Origin: Nakamurella sp.
GTDB taxonomy: Bacteria > Actinomycetota > Actinomycetes > Mycobacteriales > Nakamurellaceae
NCBI GenBank assembly: GCA_017882715.1
Contig: JADGOY010000010.1
Coordinates: 1 to 45,276, forward strand
Direction of reading: 5' to 3'
Length of the DNA: 45,276 nt
A program made the position numbers and the translations under genes. Of this stretch, positions 1,464 to 30,277 are shown in pieces. How positions within the stretch are numbered: position 1 is the stretch's first letter; the number at the start of each line of letters is the position of its first letter. The notes beneath the pieces are model-generated. The model had not been told where the DNA came from, ran no database searches, and was given only the letters and a program-made list of their open reading frames with translations.

Positions 1464-2944
1464 AGCGGCCGCTGCGCCGACTCGGTACCGCCGTGATCGT
1501 GATGATCGGTCTGCTGCTGGCCAACATCGCCTACACCCAGGTCATCAAGGCCGATGACTACCGGGCCGACCCGAACAACAAACGCACCCTGGTGGCGGAG
1601 TACAGCCGGCAGCGCGGCCAGATCACCGCAGCCGGCGGCGTCGTGCTGGCCCGCTCCGATCCGGTCAACGACCAGTACCAGTACCAGCGGGTGTATCCGG
1701 GTGCCGGGATGTACGCGAACCTCACCGGCTATTACTCCATGCGCTACGGGCCGACCGGCCTGGAGCGGAACCAGAACGAGATCCTGTCCGGTGATTCCCC
1801 CGAGTTGATCGCCGGCCAGCTGTCCGACCTGATCACCGGGCGCGATCCGCGCGGTGGCAACGTCGAACTGACCGTGGTGCCCGCCGTCCAGCAGGCGGCA
1901 TACACCGCGATGACCGACAAGAAGTACGTCGGTGCCGTGGTGGCGATCGAACCGTCGACGGGGAAGATCCTGGCGATGGTGTCGACGCCGTCCTACAACC
2001 CGAACCCGCTGGCCAGCCACAGCGACGCGGTCCAGCGGAAGGCCTACAACGCCCTGCTCAACGACGACCCCAGCCCCCTGGTGAACCGGGCCACCGGCGC
2101 CGTCTACCCGCCCGGCTCCACCTTCAAGCTGGTGATCGCGGCGGCCGCACTCCAGCAGGAATACACGCCGCAGACCCCGGTCACCGGCAAGTCGAAGATC
2201 AACCTGCCGGACACCGGCGGGGCGACGTTGTCGAACTTCGGCGGCGAGACCTGCGGCAACGGCGGCGGCGCGGACGTCTCTTTGACCGAGGCCCTGGCCT
2301 TCTCCTGCAACACCGCCTTCGCCCAGGTCGCGATGAGTGTCGGCACCGTGCCGATCCGACGGCAGGCCGAGGCGCTGGGCATCGACGTGGCGCCGCCGCC
2401 CGACATCGGCGTCGACCTCGTCGGGTCGCGCCTGGGTGATGTGCCGGACACCGCGGCGCTGGCGCAGACCGGCATCGGTCAGCGGGACGTCGCGATGTCG
2501 CCCTTCCAGATGGCCTGGATCACGGCCACGATCGCCAATCGCGGGGATCAGATGGCGCCGCATCTGATCGCCAAGACCACCAAGCCGGATCTGTCGGTGA
2601 TCTCCCAGACCCAGCCGGAGTCACTCGGCCAGGCGATCCCGATTCCGGTGGCCGACGAGGTACGGGACATGATGGTGGCGTCCGAGAAGGAGACGCTGGG
2701 GTCCGGCGCGATCTCGAATCTCGTCATCGCATCGAAGACCGGGACCGCCGAACACGGAACGGACCCCAAGCACACTCCACCGCACGCGTGGTACGTGGCC
2801 TTCGCCCCGGCCGACAATCCGAAGGTCGCGGTGGCGGTGATGGTCGAGAACGGCGGCGGCCTCGGGCTGGACGCCACCGGATCGAAGGTCGCCGCGCCGA
2901 TCGGCCGTTCGGTGATCGCCGCCGCGTTGGCGGGCGGACCGTGA
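1460..2944 (+). CDS. pbpA: Class B penicillin-binding protein (transpeptidase) PbpA
   Basis: A 494-residue DD-transpeptidase that cross-links peptidoglycan, anchored by one N-terminal membrane segment (about residues 10-27). The three penicillin-binding motifs are visible: S220-TFK223 (SxxK, active-site serine), S282-C283-N284 (SxN) and K426-T-G (KTG). The N-terminal 150 residues form the dimerisation/non-penicillin-binding region, with an RYGPTGLE-type motif. The gene starts with GTG overlapping the rodA stop by 4 bases, and its own TGA overlaps the pknA start. It is the partner transpeptidase of the SEDS protein just upstream. All catalytic motifs are intact. Confidence 0.95.
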   Translation: MKRPLRRLGTAVIVMIGLLLANIAYTQVIKADDYRADPNNKRTLVAEYSRQRGQITAAGGVVLARSDPVNDQYQYQRVYPGAGMYANLTGYYSMRYGPTGLERNQNEILSGDSPELIAGQLSDLITGRDPRGGNVELTVVPAVQQAAYTAMTDKKYVGAVVAIEPSTGKILAMVSTPSYNPNPLASHSDAVQRKAYNALLNDDPSPLVNRATGAVYPPGSTFKLVIAAAALQQEYTPQTPVTGKSKINLPDTGGATLSNFGGETCGNGGGADVSLTEALAFSCNTAFAQVAMSVGTVPIRRQAEALGIDVAPPPDIGVDLVGSRLGDVPDTAALAQTGIGQRDVAMSPFQMAWITATIANRGDQMAPHLIAKTTKPDLSVISQTQPESLGQAIPIPVADEVRDMMVASEKETLGSGAISNLVIASKTGTAEHGTDPKHTPPHAWYVAFAPADNPKVAVAVMVENGGGLGLDATGSKVAAPIGRSVIAAALAGGP

Positions 2945-4188
2945 TGCTGACGCCCGGGTTGCTGCTGTCCGACCGCTACCGGCTGAACCGCTGCATCGCC
3001 GTGGGCGGCATGGGTGAGGTGTGGGCGGCCGACGACATCCGGCTCGTCCGAGTGGTGGCGGTGAAGATCCTCCGGTCGGAATTGACCGGTGATCCGGAGT
3101 TCGTCGACCGGTTCCGGACCGAGGCACGGATCACCGCTTCGCTCAACCACCCCGGTATCGCGTCGGTGTACGACTACGGCGAGGTCGCCACCGGCGGTGA
3201 CCCACGGAGGCGGAACACGGCCTACCTGGTGATGGAACTGATCGCCGGGGAGTCCCTGTCGGCCGCGTTGGCCCGGATGCACCGGCTGTCCGCGTCGCGG
3301 ACCCTGGACGTGCTGGATCAGGCCGGCCGCGCCCTGCAGGTCGCGCACGCCCGATTGCTGGTCCACCGCGACATCAAGCCCGGCAACCTGTTGATCACTC
3401 CCGGCGGCCAGGTCAAGATCACCGACTTCGGTATCGCGAAGGTCGCCCACCAGGTGCCGGTCACCCGTACCGGTTTGGTGATGGGCACGGCCCAGTACAT
3501 CTCGCCGGAACAGGCGACCGGGCATAACGCCGTGCCGGCCTCGGACATCTACTCGCTCGGCGTTGTCGCCTACGAATGCCTGGCCGGCCGATTGCCGTTC
3601 CCCGGTGAGAACGCCGTCGCGGTGGCGTTGGCCCACGTCAGGGACGTTCCCGGCCCGCTGCCGGCCGATGTGCCGGCCCCGGTCGCTGCGCTGGTCATGC
3701 AGCTGCTGGTCAAGGATCCCGCCGCCCGCTTGCCGAACGGAGCCGCACTGGCCCAGGCCGTCGGCCGGGTGCGATCAGCGGCCGCATCGGGTACCGGGGT
3801 GCTCTCGACGGCGCCGCCCGGCCTGCCCCGACCCATCCGCCCGACCGCCAGCTTCGCCTCCGCCGGACTGATTCCCGCGACGGGCGGAGCCGCGGTCCGC
3901 GCGGCGGTGCCGACCGGTCAACGCCGCGCACCGACCGCCGGCCCGCACCGGAATCAACCATTCCCAGCCACCGGGCAGTCCCACCCATCGCCGGTGCGCC
4001 GCCCGGCCGGGCGGCGCACCGGGCTCGCGGTCATGCTGGCGTTGCTGGTGCTGGCCTTGGCCGCCATGGCGGGTGTGGTGATCGACCAGCTCGCGGCCGG
4101 CATGCCAGCGCCGGCTGCGACCACCCGGTTGGGGTTCGCCCCCGGCGCCGGCTCCGGCCAAGGCACGCTGGGCGGATGGTCCTCGTGA
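2944..4188 (+). CDS. pknA: Membrane-anchored Ser/Thr protein kinase PknA
   Basis: A 414-residue Hanks-type kinase. The glycine loop is AVGGMGEV (from residue 19), the ATP lysine is K41, the catalytic loop HRDIKPGN contains D143, and the DFG aspartate is D161. A Pro/Ala-rich linker leads to one membrane helix at about 360-382 and a short, domain-free outer segment, so there are no PASTA repeats, as in mycobacterial PknA. The ATG at 2944 touches the pbpA TGA. An in-frame GTG at 2941 would give the same GTGA overlap used upstream and is an equally good start. It probably controls growth and division enzymes encoded in the same cluster. Confidence 0.92.
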   Translation: MLTPGLLLSDRYRLNRCIAVGGMGEVWAADDIRLVRVVAVKILRSELTGDPEFVDRFRTEARITASLNHPGIASVYDYGEVATGGDPRRRNTAYLVMELIAGESLSAALARMHRLSASRTLDVLDQAGRALQVAHARLLVHRDIKPGNLLITPGGQVKITDFGIAKVAHQVPVTRTGLVMGTAQYISPEQATGHNAVPASDIYSLGVVAYECLAGRLPFPGENAVAVALAHVRDVPGPLPADVPAPVAALVMQLLVKDPAARLPNGAALAQAVGRVRSAAASGTGVLSTAPPGLPRPIRPTASFASAGLIPATGGAAVRAAVPTGQRRAPTAGPHRNQPFPATGQSHPSPVRRPAGRRTGLAVMLALLVLALAAMAGVVIDQLAAGMPAPAATTRLGFAPGAGSGQGTLGGWSS

Positions 4189-8849: not shown

Positions 8850-9494
8850 TCAGACGGCAGTGAGCCGCAGGCGTTCCACGTCGGCCTCCAGCGTGGGAAC
8901 CCGGTCGGCGGCATCCACGTCACCGCAGACCGCCAGCCAGTTCGCCAGCATCCGATGCCCGCCCTGGGTGAGCACCGATTCCGGGTGGAACTGGACGCCC
9001 TCCACGGCGTGCTCCCGGTGGCGCAGGCCCATGATCACTCCACCCTGGGTGCGGGCGGTGACCTCCAGTTCCACCGGCACCGTCCCGTCCATCACGGCCA
9101 GGGAGTGATAACGGGTCGCGGTGAACGGATCGGGAAGTCCGGCCAGCACACCGGCGCCCCCGTGGTGGACCAGCGAGGTCCGGCCGTGCAGCAACTCCCC
9201 GGCCCGGTCCACCACCGCGCCGTACACCTCGGCGATGGCCTGATGACCCAGACACACCCCGAAGATCGGCAGCCGGCCGGCGCCCCAGCGCACGATCTGT
9301 TCGCTGACGCCCGAGTCGGCCGGCGTGCCGGGGCCGGGGGACAGCAGTACGCCGTCCACGCCCAGGTCCGCGATCTCGTCTGTGGTGACAGCATCGTTGC
9401 GCCGGACGATGCAGTAAGCGCCGAGCTGCTCGAGGTACTGCACGAGGTTGAAGACGAAGGAGTCGTAGTTGTCGACGACGAGGATGGTGCTCAT
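8850..9494 (-). CDS. trpG/pabA: Anthranilate/aminodeoxychorismate synthase glutamine amidotransferase subunit
   Basis: A 214-residue class I glutamine amidotransferase supplying ammonia to anthranilate or 4-amino-4-deoxychorismate synthase (tryptophan or folate). The catalytic Cys C81 sits in GVCLGHQAI, with H170 and E172 in VQFHPES. The N-terminal VVDNYDSFVFN and the LLSPGPGTP motif are typical. The start is ATG 9494, since the family sequence begins there; in-frame sequence further upstream is unconserved. The neighbouring sortase, DUF881 and crgA genes place it where M. tuberculosis has Rv0013 (trpG). TrpG and PabA cannot be told apart from sequence alone and the protein may serve both pathways. 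Confidence 0.92.
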   Translation of the reverse strand: MSTILVVDNYDSFVFNLVQYLEQLGAYCIVRRNDAVTTDEIADLGVDGVLLSPGPGTPADSGVSEQIVRWGAGRLPIFGVCLGHQAIAEVYGAVVDRAGELLHGRTSLVHHGGAGVLAGLPDPFTATRYHSLAVMDGTVPVELEVTARTQGGVIMGLRHREHAVEGVQFHPESVLTQGGHRMLANWLAVCGDVDAADRVPTLEADVERLRLTAV

Positions 9495-9556
9495 GCCGAC
9501 CAGGGTCGCACAACCGGGTGAGCGAGGGTCCCGCATTTCGACACGCCTTGCAAACG

Positions 9557-9712
9557 TCAGCCGGTCGACATCCGGTCGAACGGCAGATACGGCTCCAGCC
9601 ACGGGAACACCACGAAGAACAACAAGGCCACGACGGCCAGGAACAGGCCGAGGGCCTGCAGTACCCTCAGCGCGGTCGGCCCCGGCAGCCGCCGCCAGAT
9701 CCACACGTACAT
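9557..9712 (-). CDS. Small single-pass membrane protein (51 aa) coupled to the sortase
   Basis: The short gene begins ATG at 9712, one base after the sortase stop (TGA-C-ATG), and ends TGA at 9557-9559. The protein starts MYVWIWRRLPGPTALRVLQA, followed by one strong hydrophobic helix (LGLFLAVVALLFFVVFPW) and a short acidic tail ending LPFDRMSTG. The positive-inside N-terminus, good GC3 codon use and near-overlap with the sortase support a real gene. A small membrane protein next to class E sortases is common in actinobacteria (general recollection). Its function is not known; it may assist the sortase or DUF881 protein in the membrane. Confidence 0.8.
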   Translation of the reverse strand: MYVWIWRRLPGPTALRVLQALGLFLAVVALLFFVVFPWLEPYLPFDRMSTG

Positions 9713-9713
9713 G

Positions 9714-17079: not shown

Positions 17080-17498
17080 CATCGTGCTGAACACGTTGGA
17101 CCTGGACGACTTCGTGTTCCGGCGCTGCAGGCCGGGGCGGCCGGGTTCCTGTGACGGGCCCCCCGCCACGCGATCTCATCCAGGCGGTCCTGGTGGTGGC
17201 CGCAGGCGACGCGATGCTCTCCCGGGCGTCACCAGGCGGCTGATCACCCACTTCGCGGACGATCCGCGGGCCGAGCACCGGCGGCGCGCGCAGGCTCGGC
17301 TGGCCGCACCGATCGCGAGCGCGAGGTTCTCGCCGAGGTGGGAAAGGGCCTGTCCAACAACGATATCGGCGCGTGGCTGTATGTGATCTGAGCGAGGCGA
17401 CCGTGCAGGCGCGCGTGTCACGCCTGCTGATCAAGCTGGACACGGCCAACCGGGTGCAGGTCGCGATCCTGGCGCACGAGGCCGGGCTGTTGGACTGA
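17080..17498 (+). pseudogene. NarL/LuxR-type response regulator, decayed
   Basis: Three reading frames together give the end of a receiver domain and a whole HTH. They include NTLDLDDFVF and ALQAGAAGFL (interrupted by TGA), then RDLIQAVLVVAAGDAMLS, GVTRRLITHFADDP, TDREREVLAEVGKGLSNNDI and finally SEATVQARVSRLLIKLD with RVQVAILAHEAGLLD before TGA at 17496. At least three frameshifts and one stop separate them, and the phospho-acceptor half of the receiver is absent. This is mutational decay, not a single sequencing error. Confidence 0.8.
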
Positions 17499-18868: not shown

Positions 18869-19615
18869 GTGGCCATGACAACGACGCCCACACGGACAAG
18901 AATGGTGACGCCCAGAACCGTGCTCCTGGTTCCGGCACTCGCCGGACTGGCGGCGCTGCTGGCGGGCTGCGGCGTGCTGGGCGATGCGGGGCCGCAGACC
19001 ACCACCCAGCGGACGATCCAGGGCGTCACCGCGGTCGAACTGCACACCAGCGGCGACCTGACCATCACCGTCGGCGAGTCGCAGGGTTTGACCATCACGG
19101 CGGGCGCCAACCAACTCGACTACCTGACCACCGAGGTGGACAACGGCACGTTGATGCTGGACAGCAAATCCAACATGCCCTCCGGCGGGCCCATCTCCTA
19201 TGCGCTGGTCGTCCCGTCCATCAACAGCCTGGTGGTCAGTGGGTCGGGCAATGCGACCGGCGACGGGGTCGCCAAGGGCGACTTTCAGGTCACCGTGTCA
19301 GGGTCCGGCAATGCCAACCTGACCGGTCTGGATGTCCCATCGGTGGCGGTGGATATGTCCGGGTCCGGCAACCTGACGCTCGCCGGGCGCGCCGATGCCC
19401 AGCAGGTCGACGTCCACGGTTCCGGCGACTACGACGGGAAAGGCCTGACCAGCGCCGACGCCGGCGTCCAGGTGAGCGGATCGGGCAGCGCCGGCGTCAA
19501 CGTCTCCGCGCGGCTGACCGCATCGATCAGCGGTAGTGGCGACATCAACTACTCCGGTTCACCCAGCCAGGTGGAGAAGTCGGTGACGGGGAGCGGCTCG
19601 ATCAACGGGAGCTGA
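18869..19615 (+). CDS. DUF2807 (GIN-domain) lipoprotein
   Basis: 248 residues. A lipoprotein signal ends in LLAGC (C34). The mature part is a right-handed beta-helix-like DUF2807 domain with repeated SGSGN/GSGD motifs about every 18-20 residues (VVSGSGNATG, TVSGSGNANL, DMSGSGNLTL, DVHGSGDYDG, QVSGSGSAGV, SISGSGDINY), each a turn of the helix. It starts with GTG 18869; ATG 18875 is an alternative. The function of the family is unknown; it is exported and probably surface-bound. Confidence 0.9.
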   Translation: MAMTTTPTRTRMVTPRTVLLVPALAGLAALLAGCGVLGDAGPQTTTQRTIQGVTAVELHTSGDLTITVGESQGLTITAGANQLDYLTTEVDNGTLMLDSKSNMPSGGPISYALVVPSINSLVVSGSGNATGDGVAKGDFQVTVSGSGNANLTGLDVPSVAVDMSGSGNLTLAGRADAQQVDVHGSGDYDGKGLTSADAGVQVSGSGSAGVNVSARLTASISGSGDINYSGSPSQVEKSVTGSGSINGS

Positions 19616-19782
19616 CGGGATCTGTCGACAGCCCAGCGCAGGTAGATCATCCGGTCCGGCGCCACCGGGCGCCCTGCCTGCAGTGCCAACGCCGCCAGCA
19701 ACGCTCGCGGCTTGGGCGCGCACAGGTCGATCGTGACGTTCTCGCGGCTGACGAGCAGCGGCCCGAGCACAGCGACCTGCAT
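19616..19782 (-). pseudogene. N-terminal fragment of an AfsR/SARP-type regulator
   Basis: The frame from ATG 19782 reads MQVAVLGPLLVSRENVTIDL, then APKPRALLAALALQAGRPVA, then PDRMIYLRWAVDRS. This is the start of a SARP winged-helix domain (compare the family pattern VLGPL...GPKQRALLALLL...GRPVS.D.L...LW). Homology stops about 54 residues in, and the frame then runs into the antisense of the DUF2807 gene. The DNA-recognition part and BTAD domain are absent. Confidence 0.65.
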
Positions 19783-20162
19783 GCCTCGTACGGTAGTGAT
19801 CACGCCCGGTCTCGGTACCGGGGTTTCGGGAGCTCTGGTGGCGGGTCGGCGATGGGTGGTGATCGCCACACAATGCATCGGTGGTCTGGCGGAAGAGGGG
19901 TCGAAAGCCCATTTCACCACCGAAACGACGTCGGAACTGCGCTCGGTGACCATTTGCGATCCCCACCGACAGGTTCAGCCGTCCGCCACCAGAGTGGCGT
20001 AACCCGGGGCGACGCACCGCGCTCGTACACTGGAGATGCTGGATCGATCCAGACCTGCACGGACCGGTATTGATCGGTTCAGCCCCCCTCGCCCCGGCGT
20101 TCGGCCGGGGCGGTCCAGGGGCGACGAGGCCCCGCTCCAACTATCAGAGCGGACATTCCGCC
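19783..20162. other. Intergenic region with a GC hairpin
   Basis: 380 bases without a recognised gene. CGCCCCGG at 20090-20097 and CCGGGGCG at 20105-20112 form a perfect 8-base stem with a 7-base loop, about 50 bases upstream of the small gene at 20163. It could be a terminator for something upstream or a leader structure. A TACACT hexamer at about 20025 could be a -10 element. Nothing else is seen. Confidence 0.4.
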
Positions 20163-24157: not shown

Positions 24158-24536
24158 TCAGGCGGGGACCCAGTTCATCTCGTCCGGATCGGGGCCGGTC
24201 CGCTCGTCCCGGTTCAAACCGGTGATGAGCGACACGTCGGTGTCGGTCAGTTCGAAATCGAAGATCTCGACGTTCTCCAGCATGCGGCCCCGCTTCAGCG
24301 ACTTCGGGAACACGATGTTCCCAGCTGGATGTGCCAGCGGAGCACGATCTGCGCCGACGTCTTGCCGCAACTGCTGGCCAGGTCGTTGATCGTCGGGTCT
24401 TCCAGGACGCGCCCTGCGCGATCTGGGACAGTGCCTCGGTCGCGATGCCGTGCTCGGCGTCGAACGCCGGCAGGTCGTCCTGGGTCAGGTACGGATGAAG
24501 CTCGATCTGGTTGACCGCGGGGATCTTGACAGACAT
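24158..24536 (-). pseudogene. Aldo/keto reductase, 5'-truncated and frameshifted
   Basis: Three frames in order give NQIELHPYLTQDDLPAFDAE and HGIATEALSQIA, then DPTINDLASSCGKTSAQIVL with RWHIQLG, then NIVFPKSLKRGRMLENVEIF and DFELTDTDVSLITGLN before TGA at 24158. These are consecutive C-terminal blocks of an AKR barrel (substrate strand, NADPH-binding PKS motif). The N-terminal half with the catalytic Asp-Tyr-Lys is missing. An intact, different AKR lies at 29297. Confidence 0.78.
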
Positions 24537-24622: not shown

Positions 24623-26389
24623 TCAGCTTGCCCCGCAGTCGGGCCGGCACATCCGCTGGCCGACGGCGTCCAGGAAGATCTCGCCGATGTTGTTGGGATC
24701 GAGCGAGACGTAGGTCGATCCACCCGTGGCGGTGCTGATCTGGGTCAACGCGTCCACGTCGCTGTCCGGTCCGAAACCGATCGAGATCACCGTGACCGGA
24801 CGCTGCGGGTCCGCCTCGTTCTTCAGGGTGGTCAGCAGGGTCGGCAGGCCGATGGTGTTCGCGTCGTCGTTCATCCCGTCGGAAAGGATCAGCACCGTGT
24901 TCACCCGGTTCGGGTCCCAGCTGGCGCGCATCGCCCGGACGGCGGCCAGCGTGGTGTCATACAGGCCGGTGCCGCCGTCCGGGATGGCCTGGGTCGCGTC
25001 CAGCGCCTGTCCGAGTTTCTGCTGACCGGTGACGCCGTCCGGACCCGGAGCGAGTGTGCCGACCGGGACGAGTTCGCGATAGTCGGTGGACGGGGTCAGG
25101 TTGGTCGAGAACACCCACAGACCGAGTTCGCTGTCGGGCGGGTAGAGCCCGAGGCCGCGCTTGGCTGCGCCCTTCGCGAGTTCGATCCGGGACTTTCCAC
25201 CGGAACCGGGGACCTCCGCCTGCATCGAGCCGGAGATGTCCAGGATGGCGAGCAGCCGGGACGGTTCGTTGCTCAACTCGACGTCGCGGATCGCACTCTC
25301 GACGTCTGCGGCGTCGGACAGCGCCACACCGACCGCAGCCTGTGGATTGATGCCGGCGTCACCGGACAGCGCCGGACCGGCGGCTCCTGCCGGGTCCCGG
25401 AAGCCGGCGGCCTGGACGGCGGCCTTGCCGTCCGGACCGAGCAACGAGCCCAGCAACTCGTCGGCGGCGGCTGATGATGACGATGACGATGCCAAAGCGA
25501 CGAACGGGTAGTTCAGGTTGGTGCCGGCAGAGGGATACACGGCCACCGCCGGAGCCGCGCCGGTCTCCTTGTTGTGGGCCCAGACGGCCTGCTCGGTGAC
25601 CGGCAACGCCGTCCCCGGATCACTGCCGATCCGGGCCAGCAACTCTTCACCCGAGGTGGGCAGGTTCGCCGGGCTGGAGCGCAATCCCCAGGTCAGCGCC
25701 GCGCGCGCATCGGATTGACCGGCCACAGTGGATTGCAGGGCGAGGATGCCACCGACCGCATCGGCGGACTGTCTCGGCGCCGGCAGGCCCATCCGCACCG
25801 GGGTGGTGGTCAGGCGCGTGCTCAGCAAGGAATTGACGGTGACCGGACCTGCCGCGGACAACTGCTGGACCGTCGGCGCCGCCAGCGCGTACACCACGGG
25901 GCTGGCGGCCACCGAGGGTGAACCGGCGGGAACGGGAACACCCTCGCCGCCGGCCCAGGTCACCCAGACCGATGAGTCAGGAATCCACACGTCGGGATGG
26001 GTGGCGCCGGCGGCCGTCCACTGCGATGCGAACTTCGCCGGGTCGACCGGTGTGACCGTCACCTGGCAATCCTTGGCCTGCGCAGCGATCGTGCCGACAG
26101 CATCGGCGATGTCCGGCGCGGCAGCGACGGTCAGCGCGCAGTCAGACGAGGAGGCATTCCCCGCAGCTCGAGCCCCGGATGCGTCTCCCGCGGCACCGCT
26201 GGGCCCGCCGACGGCCGCGTCCTGGCTGCTCGATCCCGACCGCACGATGACGGTCACCACGCCGACGACCGCGACGAGGGCGACCACTCCCACCACCATG
26301 GCCGCACGCTGACCCTTGGATCGGCGCCGGGAATGCCGACCGCGACCGGACGGGGGGACCGCGCCGGGACTACCAGGCTGATCTGTCAT
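24623..26389 (-). CDS. Membrane-anchored VWA-domain protein with extracellular-binding-protein-like domain
   Basis: 588 residues. A basic cytoplasmic N-terminus and one membrane helix (about 30-48) lead to a Ser/Gly/Ala linker, then a periplasmic-binding-protein-type fold (CALTVAAAPDIADAVGTIAA; DVWIPDSSVWVTW). A von Willebrand A domain follows, with MIDAS D384-I-S-G-S388 and VLILSDGMNDDANT. Cys residues near the C-terminus (CRPDCGAS) could form a disulfide. Such substrate-binding plus VWA proteins are widespread in actinobacteria, but the ligand is unknown. The stop is TGA at 24623. It stands alone with pseudogenes on both sides. Confidence 0.88.
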   Translation of the reverse strand: MTDQPGSPGAVPPSGRGRHSRRRSKGQRAAMVVGVVALVAVVGVVTVIVRSGSSSQDAAVGGPSGAAGDASGARAAGNASSSDCALTVAAAPDIADAVGTIAAQAKDCQVTVTPVDPAKFASQWTAAGATHPDVWIPDSSVWVTWAGGEGVPVPAGSPSVAASPVVYALAAPTVQQLSAAGPVTVNSLLSTRLTTTPVRMGLPAPRQSADAVGGILALQSTVAGQSDARAALTWGLRSSPANLPTSGEELLARIGSDPGTALPVTEQAVWAHNKETGAAPAVAVYPSAGTNLNYPFVALASSSSSSAAADELLGSLLGPDGKAAVQAAGFRDPAGAAGPALSGDAGINPQAAVGVALSDAADVESAIRDVELSNEPSRLLAILDISGSMQAEVPGSGGKSRIELAKGAAKRGLGLYPPDSELGLWVFSTNLTPSTDYRELVPVGTLAPGPDGVTGQQKLGQALDATQAIPDGGTGLYDTTLAAVRAMRASWDPNRVNTVLILSDGMNDDANTIGLPTLLTTLKNEADPQRPVTVISIGFGPDSDVDALTQISTATGGSTYVSLDPNNIGEIFLDAVGQRMCRPDCGAS

Positions 26390-26554: not shown

Positions 26555-27940
26555 CGCCGACGACAGGCCGATCCAGCTCGGCGGCCGGCGGCAGGCGGCT
26601 GGGGCGCTGGTGCTGGGACACGGTCGGGTGGTCTCCGTGAGGCACTGGCCGACGCGGTCTGGCCGGACTCCAAACCGGCCCAGCTCCAGTCGGGGCTGCA
26701 CGCGCACATCTCCCACCTGCGCAAGCGCCTGGCTCCCGAGGGTGCGCCAGGCCTGCGGACGGGCGGCATCGAACGGTTCGGACCCGGTTACGCGCTCGGC
26801 TACCCGAAGACGCCGTCGACGCCTGACGCTCCGAATCACTGGCCACGGTGCCGTCCATGTCAATGGATTCGACCCGGGCACGGCGGTGACCGAGACACTC
26901 ACCCGGGCGCTGTCGCTCTGGCGCGGCGCCGCGCCGGCCGAGTACGCCGACGAGACCTGGTCACAGCCGGCGGCGCACCGGTGGACCGAGTTGCACGCCA
27001 TCACCCGGGAACGGCTCTACGGGGCCGGATTGGATCGCGGTGAGAGTGCCGTGCTGGTGCCCGAACTCCGGTCCTTCGTGGCGGAGGCCCCGCTACGCGA
27101 GGAACGCTGGCGGCCGCTGGCGCTGTGGCGGTCTCACCGGCGGGCCGACGCGCACGCCGCGCTGCGCAGGCTCCGCACACTGCTGGCCGACGAGCTGGGA
27201 GTGGATCCGGGGCCCGCTTTTGCAGTACTCAAGGCTGAGATCCCCTCCCAGGCAGGCAGTCTCGACACGATCACCCAAACGGCCGAGAAGCCGCTCGACA
27301 GCATTGCTGCGCCACAGCTTCCGCTCGCGCCCACCGACAACGGGTCCGACATCGTCGAGCGGGATGACGATCTCGCGATCATCGACGAGGCCCTGCGGTC
27401 GGCACTGGACGGCGACGGCCAGTGGTGCTCATCGAAGGCCCCGCCGGTATCGGCAAGACCCGGCTGCTGCGCCAGCAGATCGTCGTTGTCGTGCTGCTCC
27501 CCGGTTCGCAGGGTGACCACCAGCACGACCGGCAGGCCCTCCAGCCGGGGGAGGGCGAGGTCCCGAGGAACCGCAGCGAGCCGACGTCGCACCACTGCAC
27601 GTCGTCGACCGCGACGATCGGCCCCGCACGCGCGGACAGCTCCACGGTCGGCCCAGCACAACCTTCCTTGCAGCACCCCGAATGTGGTGTCGCCTGCCGG
27701 GTTGGCCGCATCCGTGTGTGAAGCGAGGACCAGTGTTCTCGTCGTCACCCCGCAGCCGATGAGCGGTACCGGAATCGGCGAGCTGGTCCGCGGCCGGCTG
27801 GGCGACGATCCCTGACGAGACGTTCGTCGGGTCGTGCCGTCGGACCACCCGCGGCAACCCGCTGCTGTTGCGCCAACTGCTGCGCGCCCTGGAATCCGAC
27901 GGGATCAAACCGACGGCATCGAATCCGGACACCGTCCGCG
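26555..27940 (+). pseudogene. SARP/BTAD regulator with ATPase domain, decayed and internally rearranged
   Basis: Pieces in order on the plus strand: DRPIQLGGRRQ, then ALADAVWPDSKPAQLQSGLH and AHISHLRKRLAPEG (winged helix); LTRALSLWRGAAPAEYADET to LADELGVDPGPAF (BTAD helices); VERDDDLAIIDEALRSAL, and in another frame VVLIEGPAGIGKTRLLRQ (P-loop). After a non-coding stretch come PQPMSGTGIGELVRGRLGDD and TTRGNPLLLRQLLRALESDG. At least four frameshifts separate these. The Walker B region expected between P-loop and the last two pieces is present only on the opposite strand (see the next entry). Confidence 0.82.
27476..27713 (-). pseudogene. Inverted Walker B segment of the SARP-type ATPase
   Basis: Read on the minus strand this block gives AANPAGDTTFGVLQGRLCW, then TVELSARAGPIVAVDDVQWC with DVGSLRFL (Walker B), then RDLALPRLEGLPVVLVVTLR and TGEQHDNDDLLAQ, with two frameshifts. 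This is exactly the part of a SARP/LuxR-type NTPase domain missing from the plus-strand remnant on both sides of it. The plus-strand P-loop ends at about 27475 and the plus-strand C-terminal part resumes near 27733. The simplest reading is an in-place inversion of about 240 bases. A separate antisense relic is possible but would need to match the gap by chance. Confidence 0.7.
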
Positions 27941-28226
27941 CCAATTCGCTGACTTCGCCGTATCGATCGGGTGATCTGACCCAATTGGACCATTTCGTTG
28001 ACTACACTGGGTAACACAGTTCGTGTCTTGGCTTAGAACCACGGGGGTCGCCGCAGGCAGCAGATCATCCGGGACGTACATGTCTCTCTGCGCTGTGAGA
28101 GCGGTCCACCGACTGCCGAACGGGGCGCCTGGCCGACGGCCGGCCCCGACACCGACTCGACACCCACCGGGTATCTGCATGCCCTGACGCGGTTCGACGA
28201 ATCCAGAACACCCGGAGGACGGTCAC
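27941..28226. other. Intergenic region before the SH3-zincin gene
   Basis: 286 bases between the regulator remnant and the secreted zincin gene. No coding signal is recognised. An AT-richer stretch around 27990-28020 could hold a promoter, but no clear hexamer pair was identified. GGAGGA at 28214-28219 is the ribosome-binding site of the next gene. Confidence 0.4.
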
Positions 28227-29168
28227 ATGTTCAGGACACGCAAATCGCAATTCTCGCGAGGGCTTGCCCTCGCCGGAGCCGGAGTTCTGGCCGTCACCAC
28301 CTCGATGGTGCTGACCACGACCGCGGCTCGCAGCCCAGTTTCCGCCTCGGGGCCGGACGCGAGTCGAGCGATCGTCAATTCATCGACAGCGGTCGCGCCG
28401 GTCACCACCCGGTCTGCTGCGACCGAGACCACGGACACGCCCGCAACCAGGGTGAGTACGCCCGCTCCCGTTCCGGCTCTCGACGCGACGCAGCCATCGG
28501 TGACACCCGCGCCAGACCCAGCACCCGAAGCGCCGCGTTTGTCCGCGGATAGCCTGATCACCGGGCGGGTGATGTGGGCGACCGAGTCGGTGAACGTCCG
28601 CGACACTCCAGGCACGGACGGCGCCGTCGTCGCCGTACTCAGCAGCGGCCAGTCGATCACCGCGGGAGAGGACGTCGCCGGGTGGGTGCCCATACACTCC
28701 GGTGACACTTACGGCTGGGCGTCATCGCACTTCCTCGCCGACGGCACACCTCCGGCCGAAACCCCCGCGCCGCAGCCAGAGCCGGCCTCGTCGGGCAATT
28801 GGATGACCGACATGATCCCACAGGTCGACCCCGGCGGCGCGGCCACCTGGATGTTCGAGAGGAACGGTTCTTGGGGCGCCTCCGACGGGCACACCATCTA
28901 CATCGACCCGGATGTTCCGTCCAGCAAGCGCTTCTCGGTACTGGTGCACGAATACAGCCATGTCCTGCAGGTCCAGGCGTACGGCAGCTTGAACGAATCA
29001 GTCGCCGCGATGAGCGCCCTGATCGGCGGCAGCCCCTCGGATGTCACGGCCAACGAGAGGGCGGCCGATTGCATGGCGCTGATGCTGGGGGCGACCTGGG
29101 TCAACTACGGCTGCGACGATTCGTTGCGTGCCGCGGCCGCGGCGATTCTGGCAGGCCACCGCCCGTAG
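28227..29168 (+). CDS. Secreted SH3-domain protein with C-terminal HExxH zincin-like domain
   Basis: 313 residues. An N-terminal signal region (basic RTRKSQFSR, then hydrophobic ALAGAGVLAVTT) is followed by a long Thr/Pro/Ala linker, and a bacterial SH3 module (GRVMWATESVNVRDTPGTDG to GWASSHFL, about residues 112-173). A Pro/Glu spacer leads to a C-terminal domain with H241-E-Y-S-H245 (HExxH), a downstream acidic residue in NERAADCMALMLGA as possible third ligand region, and two cysteines (DCMAL, YGCDD). The motif predicts a zinc metallopeptidase or an inactive relative. It starts at ATG 28227, 7 bases after GGAGGA. No family name is recognised for this combination. Confidence 0.82.
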   Translation: MFRTRKSQFSRGLALAGAGVLAVTTSMVLTTTAARSPVSASGPDASRAIVNSSTAVAPVTTRSAATETTDTPATRVSTPAPVPALDATQPSVTPAPDPAPEAPRLSADSLITGRVMWATESVNVRDTPGTDGAVVAVLSSGQSITAGEDVAGWVPIHSGDTYGWASSHFLADGTPPAETPAPQPEPASSGNWMTDMIPQVDPGGAATWMFERNGSWGASDGHTIYIDPDVPSSKRFSVLVHEYSHVLQVQAYGSLNESVAAMSALIGGSPSDVTANERAADCMALMLGATWVNYGCDDSLRAAAAAILAGHRP

Positions 29169-29296: not shown

Positions 29297-30157
29297 TCAG
29301 GCTGCGCCATCCAGCGCCGCGACCGTGTCTGCGGGGAGGGTGAGCGACGCCGCAGCGAGGTTCTCCTCGAGGTGCCCGACCGAACCCGTCCCCGGGATCG
29401 GGAGCATCACCGGCGAACGCTGCAGCACCCAGGCCAGCGCGACCTGCGCCGGGGTCGCGTCCAGTTCCTTCGCGGCGATGTCCACCGGGCCACCCGGCCG
29501 AGCCAACTCGCCCGCGGATACCGGTGCCCACGGGATGAAGCCGATGCCCTGGGCGGCGCAGTACTCCAGCACGTCCTGCGACGAGCGGTCGGTCAGGTTG
29601 TAGCGGTTCTGCACGGTCGCGACCGTGAAGACCTTCTGTGCCTCCTTGATCTCCTCGACCGAGACCTGCGACAGGCCCAGCGCCTTCACCTTGCCCTCGT
29701 CCTGGAGTTCCTTGAGCAGACCGAACTGTTCGGCGACGTCGACCTTCGGGTCGATGCGGTGCAACTGGAACAGGTCGATGACGTCGACCTTCAGGCGCCG
29801 CAGGCTCAACTCGGCCTGCTGGCGCAGGTACTCCGGGCGGCACAATGCGATCCATCGCTTCGGGCCGGTGCGAGCCAGCCCAGCCTTGGTGGCGATCGTC
29901 ACATCCGCGGGGTACGGGTACAGCGCCTCGGCGATGATCTCCTCGCTGATGCCGGGCCCGTACGAGTCGGCGGTGTCGATGAAGTCCACGCCCAGTTCGA
30001 CTGCGCGCCGGACGACGGCCCTGGCCACCTCACGGTCGGCCGGTTCGCCCCAGATGCCGGGTCCGGTGATCCGCATCGCCCCGAAGCCGAGCCGGTGAAC
30101 CGTGCCCAGGTCGCGGATGCCGAAGGTTCCACCTGCTGCCACGTTGATGTCGGTCAT
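29297..30157 (-). CDS. Aldo/keto reductase
   Basis: An NADPH-dependent carbonyl reductase of about 286 residues. The N-terminal [18 protein letters not shown] is followed by the catalytic Asp/Tyr block [12 protein letters not shown], the Lys in [27 protein letters not shown] with the catalytic His, and a C-terminal [16 protein letters not shown] cofactor-binding block. All tetrad residues are present. It is closest in layout to the oxidoreductase YajO/Tas-like branch. The start is ATG 30157; an in-frame GTG at 30166 is an alternative. The gene is monocistronic. Confidence 0.92.
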
Positions 30158-30277
30158 GACTGGCACAACCGGTGCAGGGGCCGAGGTTGTTCCTGATCGC
30201 AGGCAGATCTTCAGCGGAAATCACGAGGCGAACTGTTGGCGGCCGACCGCGAGGAACCCGGCGTGCGACGAGGCAAG

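Follow-up and report, generated by a model that had tools for sequence, protein, structure and literature searches.

A reverse-complemented Walker B segment in the remnant of a SARP-type regulator gene of Nakamurella sp.

Positions 26568–27942 of the contig analysed here are the 5′ remnant of a dead, large SARP-type regulator gene (winged helix, BTAD, AAA_16 NTPase), and the Walker B segment of its NTPase domain has very probably been inverted in place with a loss of about 180–240 nt, most likely in one event, by break and re-ligation or by template switching. That the Walker B segment is flipped is confirmed by profile scoring and by comparison with relatives. The window—the whole 45,276-nt stretch of DNA that was analysed—makes up contig C324 of a draft genome that totals 4.65 Mb.

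Identity and state of the regulator remnant

The remnant corresponds to approximately the first 550 residues of a protein whose relatives are about 1200 residues long. Three intact relatives scanned with Pfam (L106, L112, and L115) contain a winged helix, BTAD, and AAA_16 followed by a LuxR-like C-terminus; BTAD, AAA_16, and Trans_reg_C score above the cut-off in all three, while GerE does so in L112 and lies below the cut-off in L106 and L115. Large regulators of the BTAD, AAA_16, and LuxR-like type are presumably those labelled SARP-LAL. On the plus strand of the window, tblastn of the relatives places the winged-helix remnant at 26568–26842 in two frames, 26568–26636 and 26639/26645–26842, with 48% identity to L113 over 25 aa and 42% over 66 aa. 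These matches are to the region that Pfam calls Trans_reg_C in the three scanned relatives; Pfam made no Trans_reg_C call in the window frames supplied to it. BTAD and linker follow in one plus-strand frame (26871–27421), with a gap of two residues near 27115 in the alignments; Pfam recognizes BTAD on window positions 26610–27815 (E 3.8e-23), and the top relative is 61% identical over 129 aa. The P-loop VVLIEGPAGIGKTRLL (Walker A) occupies 27422–27469 of the plus strand, equivalent to columns 15–30 of an NTPase profile described below. After a gap, relatives and profile identify the post-Walker part, again on the plus strand, in a first frame at 27741–27809 (VVTPQPMS..RGRLGDD) and a second frame at 27811–27942 (PDETFVGSCRRTTRGNPLLLRQLLRALESDG.., the part containing GNPLLLRQLLRAL); together, 27741–27942 cover profile columns 180–246. 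BTAD, P-loop, and the GNPLLLRQLLRAL part are thus found on the strand and at the positions given in the original prediction.

All five segments of the remnant match large SARP regulators, stretch by stretch at about 33–88% identity. Unlike these regulators, the remnant is dead: it bears six frameshifts (three before the inverted block, two within it, and one after), its NTPase is inverted and shortened, and the C-terminal half with its LuxR-type HTH was not found by tblastn in a region searched to 28300, where matches end at 27942. Past this point, 10 of 13 relatives continue for 636–675 residues; L101 and L113 are matched up to where their stretch ends, and for L103 the 3′ part of the remnant gives no match. 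Since the neighbouring frames at 24623–26389, 28227–29168, and 29297–30166 are open, the frameshifts do not reflect general sequencing error. The upstream neighbour (24623–26389) is an open reverse frame with a solute-binding domain, in which VWA also matches narrowly below its cut-off, and the downstream neighbour (28227–29168) is an open forward frame with an SH3 domain. Frameshifts had been predicted to follow the inversion; six are present, and they may have arisen before or after it.

When the whole region was searched at nucleotide level against 41 genomes, nothing longer than about 140 nt matched apart from the window itself. In the 17 genomes of the genus, BTAD matches outside the window stay at or below 45% identity. 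Better relatives were obtained from 397 genomes of the order, of which 101, counting the one that carries the window, match at E ≤ 1e-20; the 13 best of these matches outside the window are 47–61% identical in BTAD. Of the 13 relatives used for the NTPase comparison, 12 belong to families elsewhere in the order and one, L101, to a MAG named Frankiales. They were drawn from 22 loci (L101–L122), two of which (L101 and L102) were supplied by a contig scan, and were chosen for matching the NTPase. The other loci stayed outside the profile: L109, which is split over two frames; L116–L122 (n = 7), whose matches are confined to winged helix, BTAD, or linker; and L102, which is absent from the 26 frames listed. 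Synteny proved uninformative: within the genus, the best match to the upstream neighbour lies in G002 (51%) and that to the downstream neighbour in G012 (55%), and no other window gene was matched at E ≤ 1e-8 among frames of at least 150 aa in the fetched stretches.

Elsewhere in the window, a short plus-strand frame at 17244–17495 ends in half a LuxR-type HTH (GerE E 1.6e-4, below the curated cut-off) and is perhaps another regulator remnant. On the minus strand, 19552–19974 contains MQVAVLGPLLVSRENVTIDLCAPKPR and by eye resembles the start of another SARP-type protein, and 24161–24484 contains VFPKSLKRGRMLENVEIFDFELTDTDVSLITGL and by eye resembles an aldo-keto reductase C-terminus; Pfam returned nothing at E 0.01 for either. 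Coding density in the window is low when judged by a coarse filter based on the GC content of the codon positions, with 17 gaps of more than 400 nt between likely genes, the regulator pseudogene among them. Some of these gaps hold genes missed by the filter (e.g., a GATase at 8853–9713), so part of the low density is attributable to the filter.

The strand switch within the NTPase

A profile was built from the NTPase segment of the 13 relatives, and the alignment to it permits frameshifts. In the best alignment, the plus strand is followed up to 27469, through the P-loop, then the minus strand from 27691 to 27470, through Walker B, and then again the plus strand at 27741–27942. The inverted block (27470–27691, minus; DTTFGVLQG..LCWA..TVELSA..AVDDVQWCDVGSLRFL..RLEGLPVVLVVTLRTGEQHDNDDLLA) corresponds to columns 99–170, its outer part (27649–27691) being weakly supported. 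Walker A and Walker B consequently do not occur in order on one strand: the Walker B block lies on the opposite strand and columns 31–98 are absent. The Walker B segment, AVDDVQWCDVGSLRFL with its flanks, had been predicted on the minus strand at 27476–27713, within the gap, and both strand and place are borne out. The proposed in-place inversion of about 240 bases likewise stands as an inversion, since collinearity is obtained only with the block flipped; as a clean flip it does not, since columns 31–98 have been lost.

Tblastn with individual relatives gives the same arrangement. For 12 of the 13, matches run plus, minus, plus with rising protein coordinates; L103, the closest relative in BTAD and the weakest in the NTPase, gives plus and minus. 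L109, with its two frames, also fits the plus, minus, plus pattern. In the case of L106 (1210 aa), residues 146–327 match 26886–27443 and residues 321–336 match 27422–27469 on the plus strand, residues 418–444 and 450–476 match 27645–27467 on the minus strand, and residues 477–506 and 512–551 match 27717–27942 on the plus strand. Plus-strand matches that extend into the block for L113, L103, L104, and L109 are read as over-extensions of the P-loop match. Pfam leaves the minus-strand block unrecognized; the subfamily profile recognizes it. Relatives and window agree in order only if the block is taken from the opposite strand, and this supports an in-place inversion within one regulator gene.

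Profile scores agree with this conclusion. When pieces are chained at a charge of 12 bits per jump, the whole region scores 227.4 bits with the block read on the minus strand as opposed to 146–149 bits otherwise (148.5 with the block on the plus strand, 146.2 with the block ignored), so that, together with the collinear flanks in 12 of 13 relatives, the region has the in-place reverse complement that characterizes a microinversion. The restored order hence aligns better than the current one; the opposite result had been named as one that would refute the prediction. Replacing the block by 200 shuffled versions gives a mean of 147.6 and a maximum of 153.7 bits, and a single plus-strand alignment without free jumps yields 105.7 bits, equal to the 3′ part alone. 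Taken by itself, the block scores 93.2 bits on the minus and 14.3 on the plus strand; 200 dinucleotide shuffles of it average 14.6 (maximum 22.3), and 200 random 251-nt pieces of the window average 14.5 (maximum 24.0). The same segment in the 13 relatives scores 177–257 bits in sense, high by construction, and 11.4–17.9 bits in antisense. This last comparison bears on the idea that the antisense of a GC-rich gene resembles protein by chance, for which the many open antisense frames in the region might speak: with at most 17.9 bits in the relatives' antisense versus 93.2 for the block, it is refuted, and its probability is negligible.

Junctions and lost codons

The left junction was placed by scoring every position from 27455 to 27491. 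Position 27469 is best (227.4 bits), followed by 27470–27472 (225.5), 27466–27468 (224.4), and positions from 27476 (220.6), so that 27469/27470 exceeds the neighbouring codons by 2–3 bits. At this point, the plus-strand part ends in RLL (column 30) and the block in LLA (column 170). The abutting ends in the piecewise alignment are partly set by the cut points, and the junction rests on the base-by-base scan. Around it, at 27464–27478, lies the palindromic 15-mer CTGCTGCGCCAGCAG, which arises where CTGCTG (Leu-Leu) is followed by CTGCTGGCG (Leu-Leu-Ala) in reverse-complemented form. This palindrome had been pointed out as having two ends that are inverted copies of each other, and it is present; as the driver of the event it fares less well. 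In all 13 relatives, each of the two sites has Glu two residues behind the Leu pair; at the second site, this pair reads Leu-Val in L103 and Leu-Ile in L101. The longest inverted repeats that these relatives share between the sites measure 4–6 nt. A 15-mer already in place at both sites would need both Glu residues to be Gln, whereas its formation as a by-product of joining needs no such substitution and is therefore favoured. To judge from the codons on either side, the palindrome probably came about when two Leu-Leu codon pairs were joined in head-to-head orientation, rather than having driven the event as a repeat.

The right junction is less sharply defined. The best interval is 27692–27740 and the score is flat over 27696–27738; moving the junction down to 27648 costs 1.3 bits, and moving it up to 27744 or 27750 costs 4.6 or 8.7 bits. 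The upper bound is consequently firm and the lower one soft, possibly as low as about 27648, which places the junction to about 50–90 nt. In the best alignment, columns 31–98 (68 codons) are absent. Columns 171–179 could fit 27714–27740, leaving room for at most seven unrecognized codons in 27692–27713; if the weakly scoring outer block (columns 99–111) is discounted, about 80 codons are absent. With some 60–80 codons missing between P-loop and block, the flip was accompanied by a loss of roughly 180–240 nt. Between 27451–27495 and 27685–27750, the longest exact inverted repeat is 7 nt, and the best inverted matches of 8, 10, 12, and 15 nt are equalled by 172, 169, 137, and 49 of 300 shuffles; the end repeats of a microinversion by switching at inverted repeats are accordingly not seen between these two stretches. 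The lack of an inverted repeat found between the junctions argues against homologous or site-specific inversion, a reversible switch, and an assembler flip.

Origin of the inversion

Two routes could lead to the present arrangement. Nearby breaks might have been followed by end trimming and by re-ligation of a fragment of about 220–270 nt in reverse; alternatively, a polymerase might have switched template to the opposite strand and then back. We infer a single event, one of these repair routes, and a gene free of selection. Genes for Ku (E 1.3e-52; 1910–2449, minus) and a LigD polymerase domain (E 1.5e-82; 2608–3342, plus) lie side by side on contig C393 of the same genome, and since both are encoded, end joining is available. 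Two further LigD-polymerase matches above the cut-off are located on C283 and C221. Inversion with deletion is a possible outcome of Ku/LigD end joining, and a flip with trimming but without repeats, as observed here, is what rejoined broken ends could leave. Template switching is described in a few coding genes, where the spacer between short inverted repeats became inverted (PMC8604942). The microinversions reported between human and chimpanzee are 17–33 nt long and flanked by inverted repeats (PMC8755829). Microinversions by template switching or break repair likewise leave a short segment reverse-complemented in place (PMC8755829, PMC8604942). The block in the remnant differs in its length of about 220–270 nt, compared with the 17–33 nt of the human–chimpanzee set (PMC8755829), in that no end repeats were found, and in the adjoining loss.

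Other origins of the flipped block have been weighed against an inversion within the gene. The genome is represented by a single draft assembly of 403 contigs that is 88.6% complete, and fold-back chimeras arise in amplified DNA, so that the block might have been flipped by the assembler or in a chimeric amplified molecule. A 7-nt repeat is too short for an assembler strand switch, however, and no longer inverted repeat was found between the two junctions; moreover, an artefact would leave unexplained the lost codons, the frameshifts, and the missing 3′ half beside open neighbouring frames, which makes this explanation improbable. The existence of invertible segments (invertons) in bacteria (PMC11892184) raises the question of a reversible intragenic switch caught in one orientation and then decayed. 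The palindromic 15-mer at the left junction would suit such a switch, but no partner repeat was found for it near the right junction and no second copy in the window at up to two mismatches, so that the flanking inverted repeats of an inverton were not found. Since adjoining codons have been lost, flipping back would not restore the gene. Both an inverton, which is extremely unlikely, and a pre-existing inverted repeat were rejected on the repeat lengths in the relatives (4–6 nt) and between the two junction stretches of the window (at most 7 nt) and on the missing 15-mer copy.

It is also conceivable that the block stems from a different NTPase gene and was inserted backwards, replacing the regulator gene's own segment. 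The genome does contain other BTAD proteins (five matches, the window itself included), and the Walker B region of L076, from the same genome, also matches the block on the minus strand, but this match is poorer (48% over 29 aa, E 0.006). Among 933 open frames from the fetched loci, with copies of the window excluded, the best-scoring genes for the block are L113, L115, L112, and L114; for the 3′ flank they are L114, L112, and L113, then L107 and L101. The 5′ piece is not long enough for such a ranking. Owing to overlapping loci (L113 = L092 = L141; L115 = L094 = L142; L112 = L091; L114 = L093), there are fewer genes than rows. Block and flank order their shared top relatives differently, and L115, near the top for the block, is not among the best 14 matches listed for the flank. 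Nonetheless, three top genes (L113, L112, and L114) are common to both, and the best alignment assigns to the block no columns other than those absent from the plus-strand gene. A foreign insert is accordingly given little credence, and an inversion of the gene's own segment is preferred.

An inversion inside a dead gene is a known kind of mutation and of modest interest; taken alone, the present case is one scar in one dead regulator. The flip could nevertheless be recognized from protein profiles alone, with relatives only 47–61% identical in the best-kept domain, and one of its ends could be placed to a codon by profile scoring. Among the literature matches listed, no report of small inversions inside bacterial pseudogenes was found, and PMC2483231 offers only a reference. 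Strand-switch scoring could be applied to annotated pseudogenes to count small bacterial inversions and to compare repeat-free ones with the presence of Ku and LigD. It is a tentative view, somewhat less likely to be right than wrong, that the remnant represents a repeat-free, single-event inversion with deletion in a bacterial gene—produced through Ku/LigD end joining or a template switch in two steps—which stayed readable at the protein level long after the gene had died, and that scars of this sort may be widespread in actinobacterial pseudogenes yet go unnoticed, since strand switches are not something that gene callers and nucleotide aligners search for.
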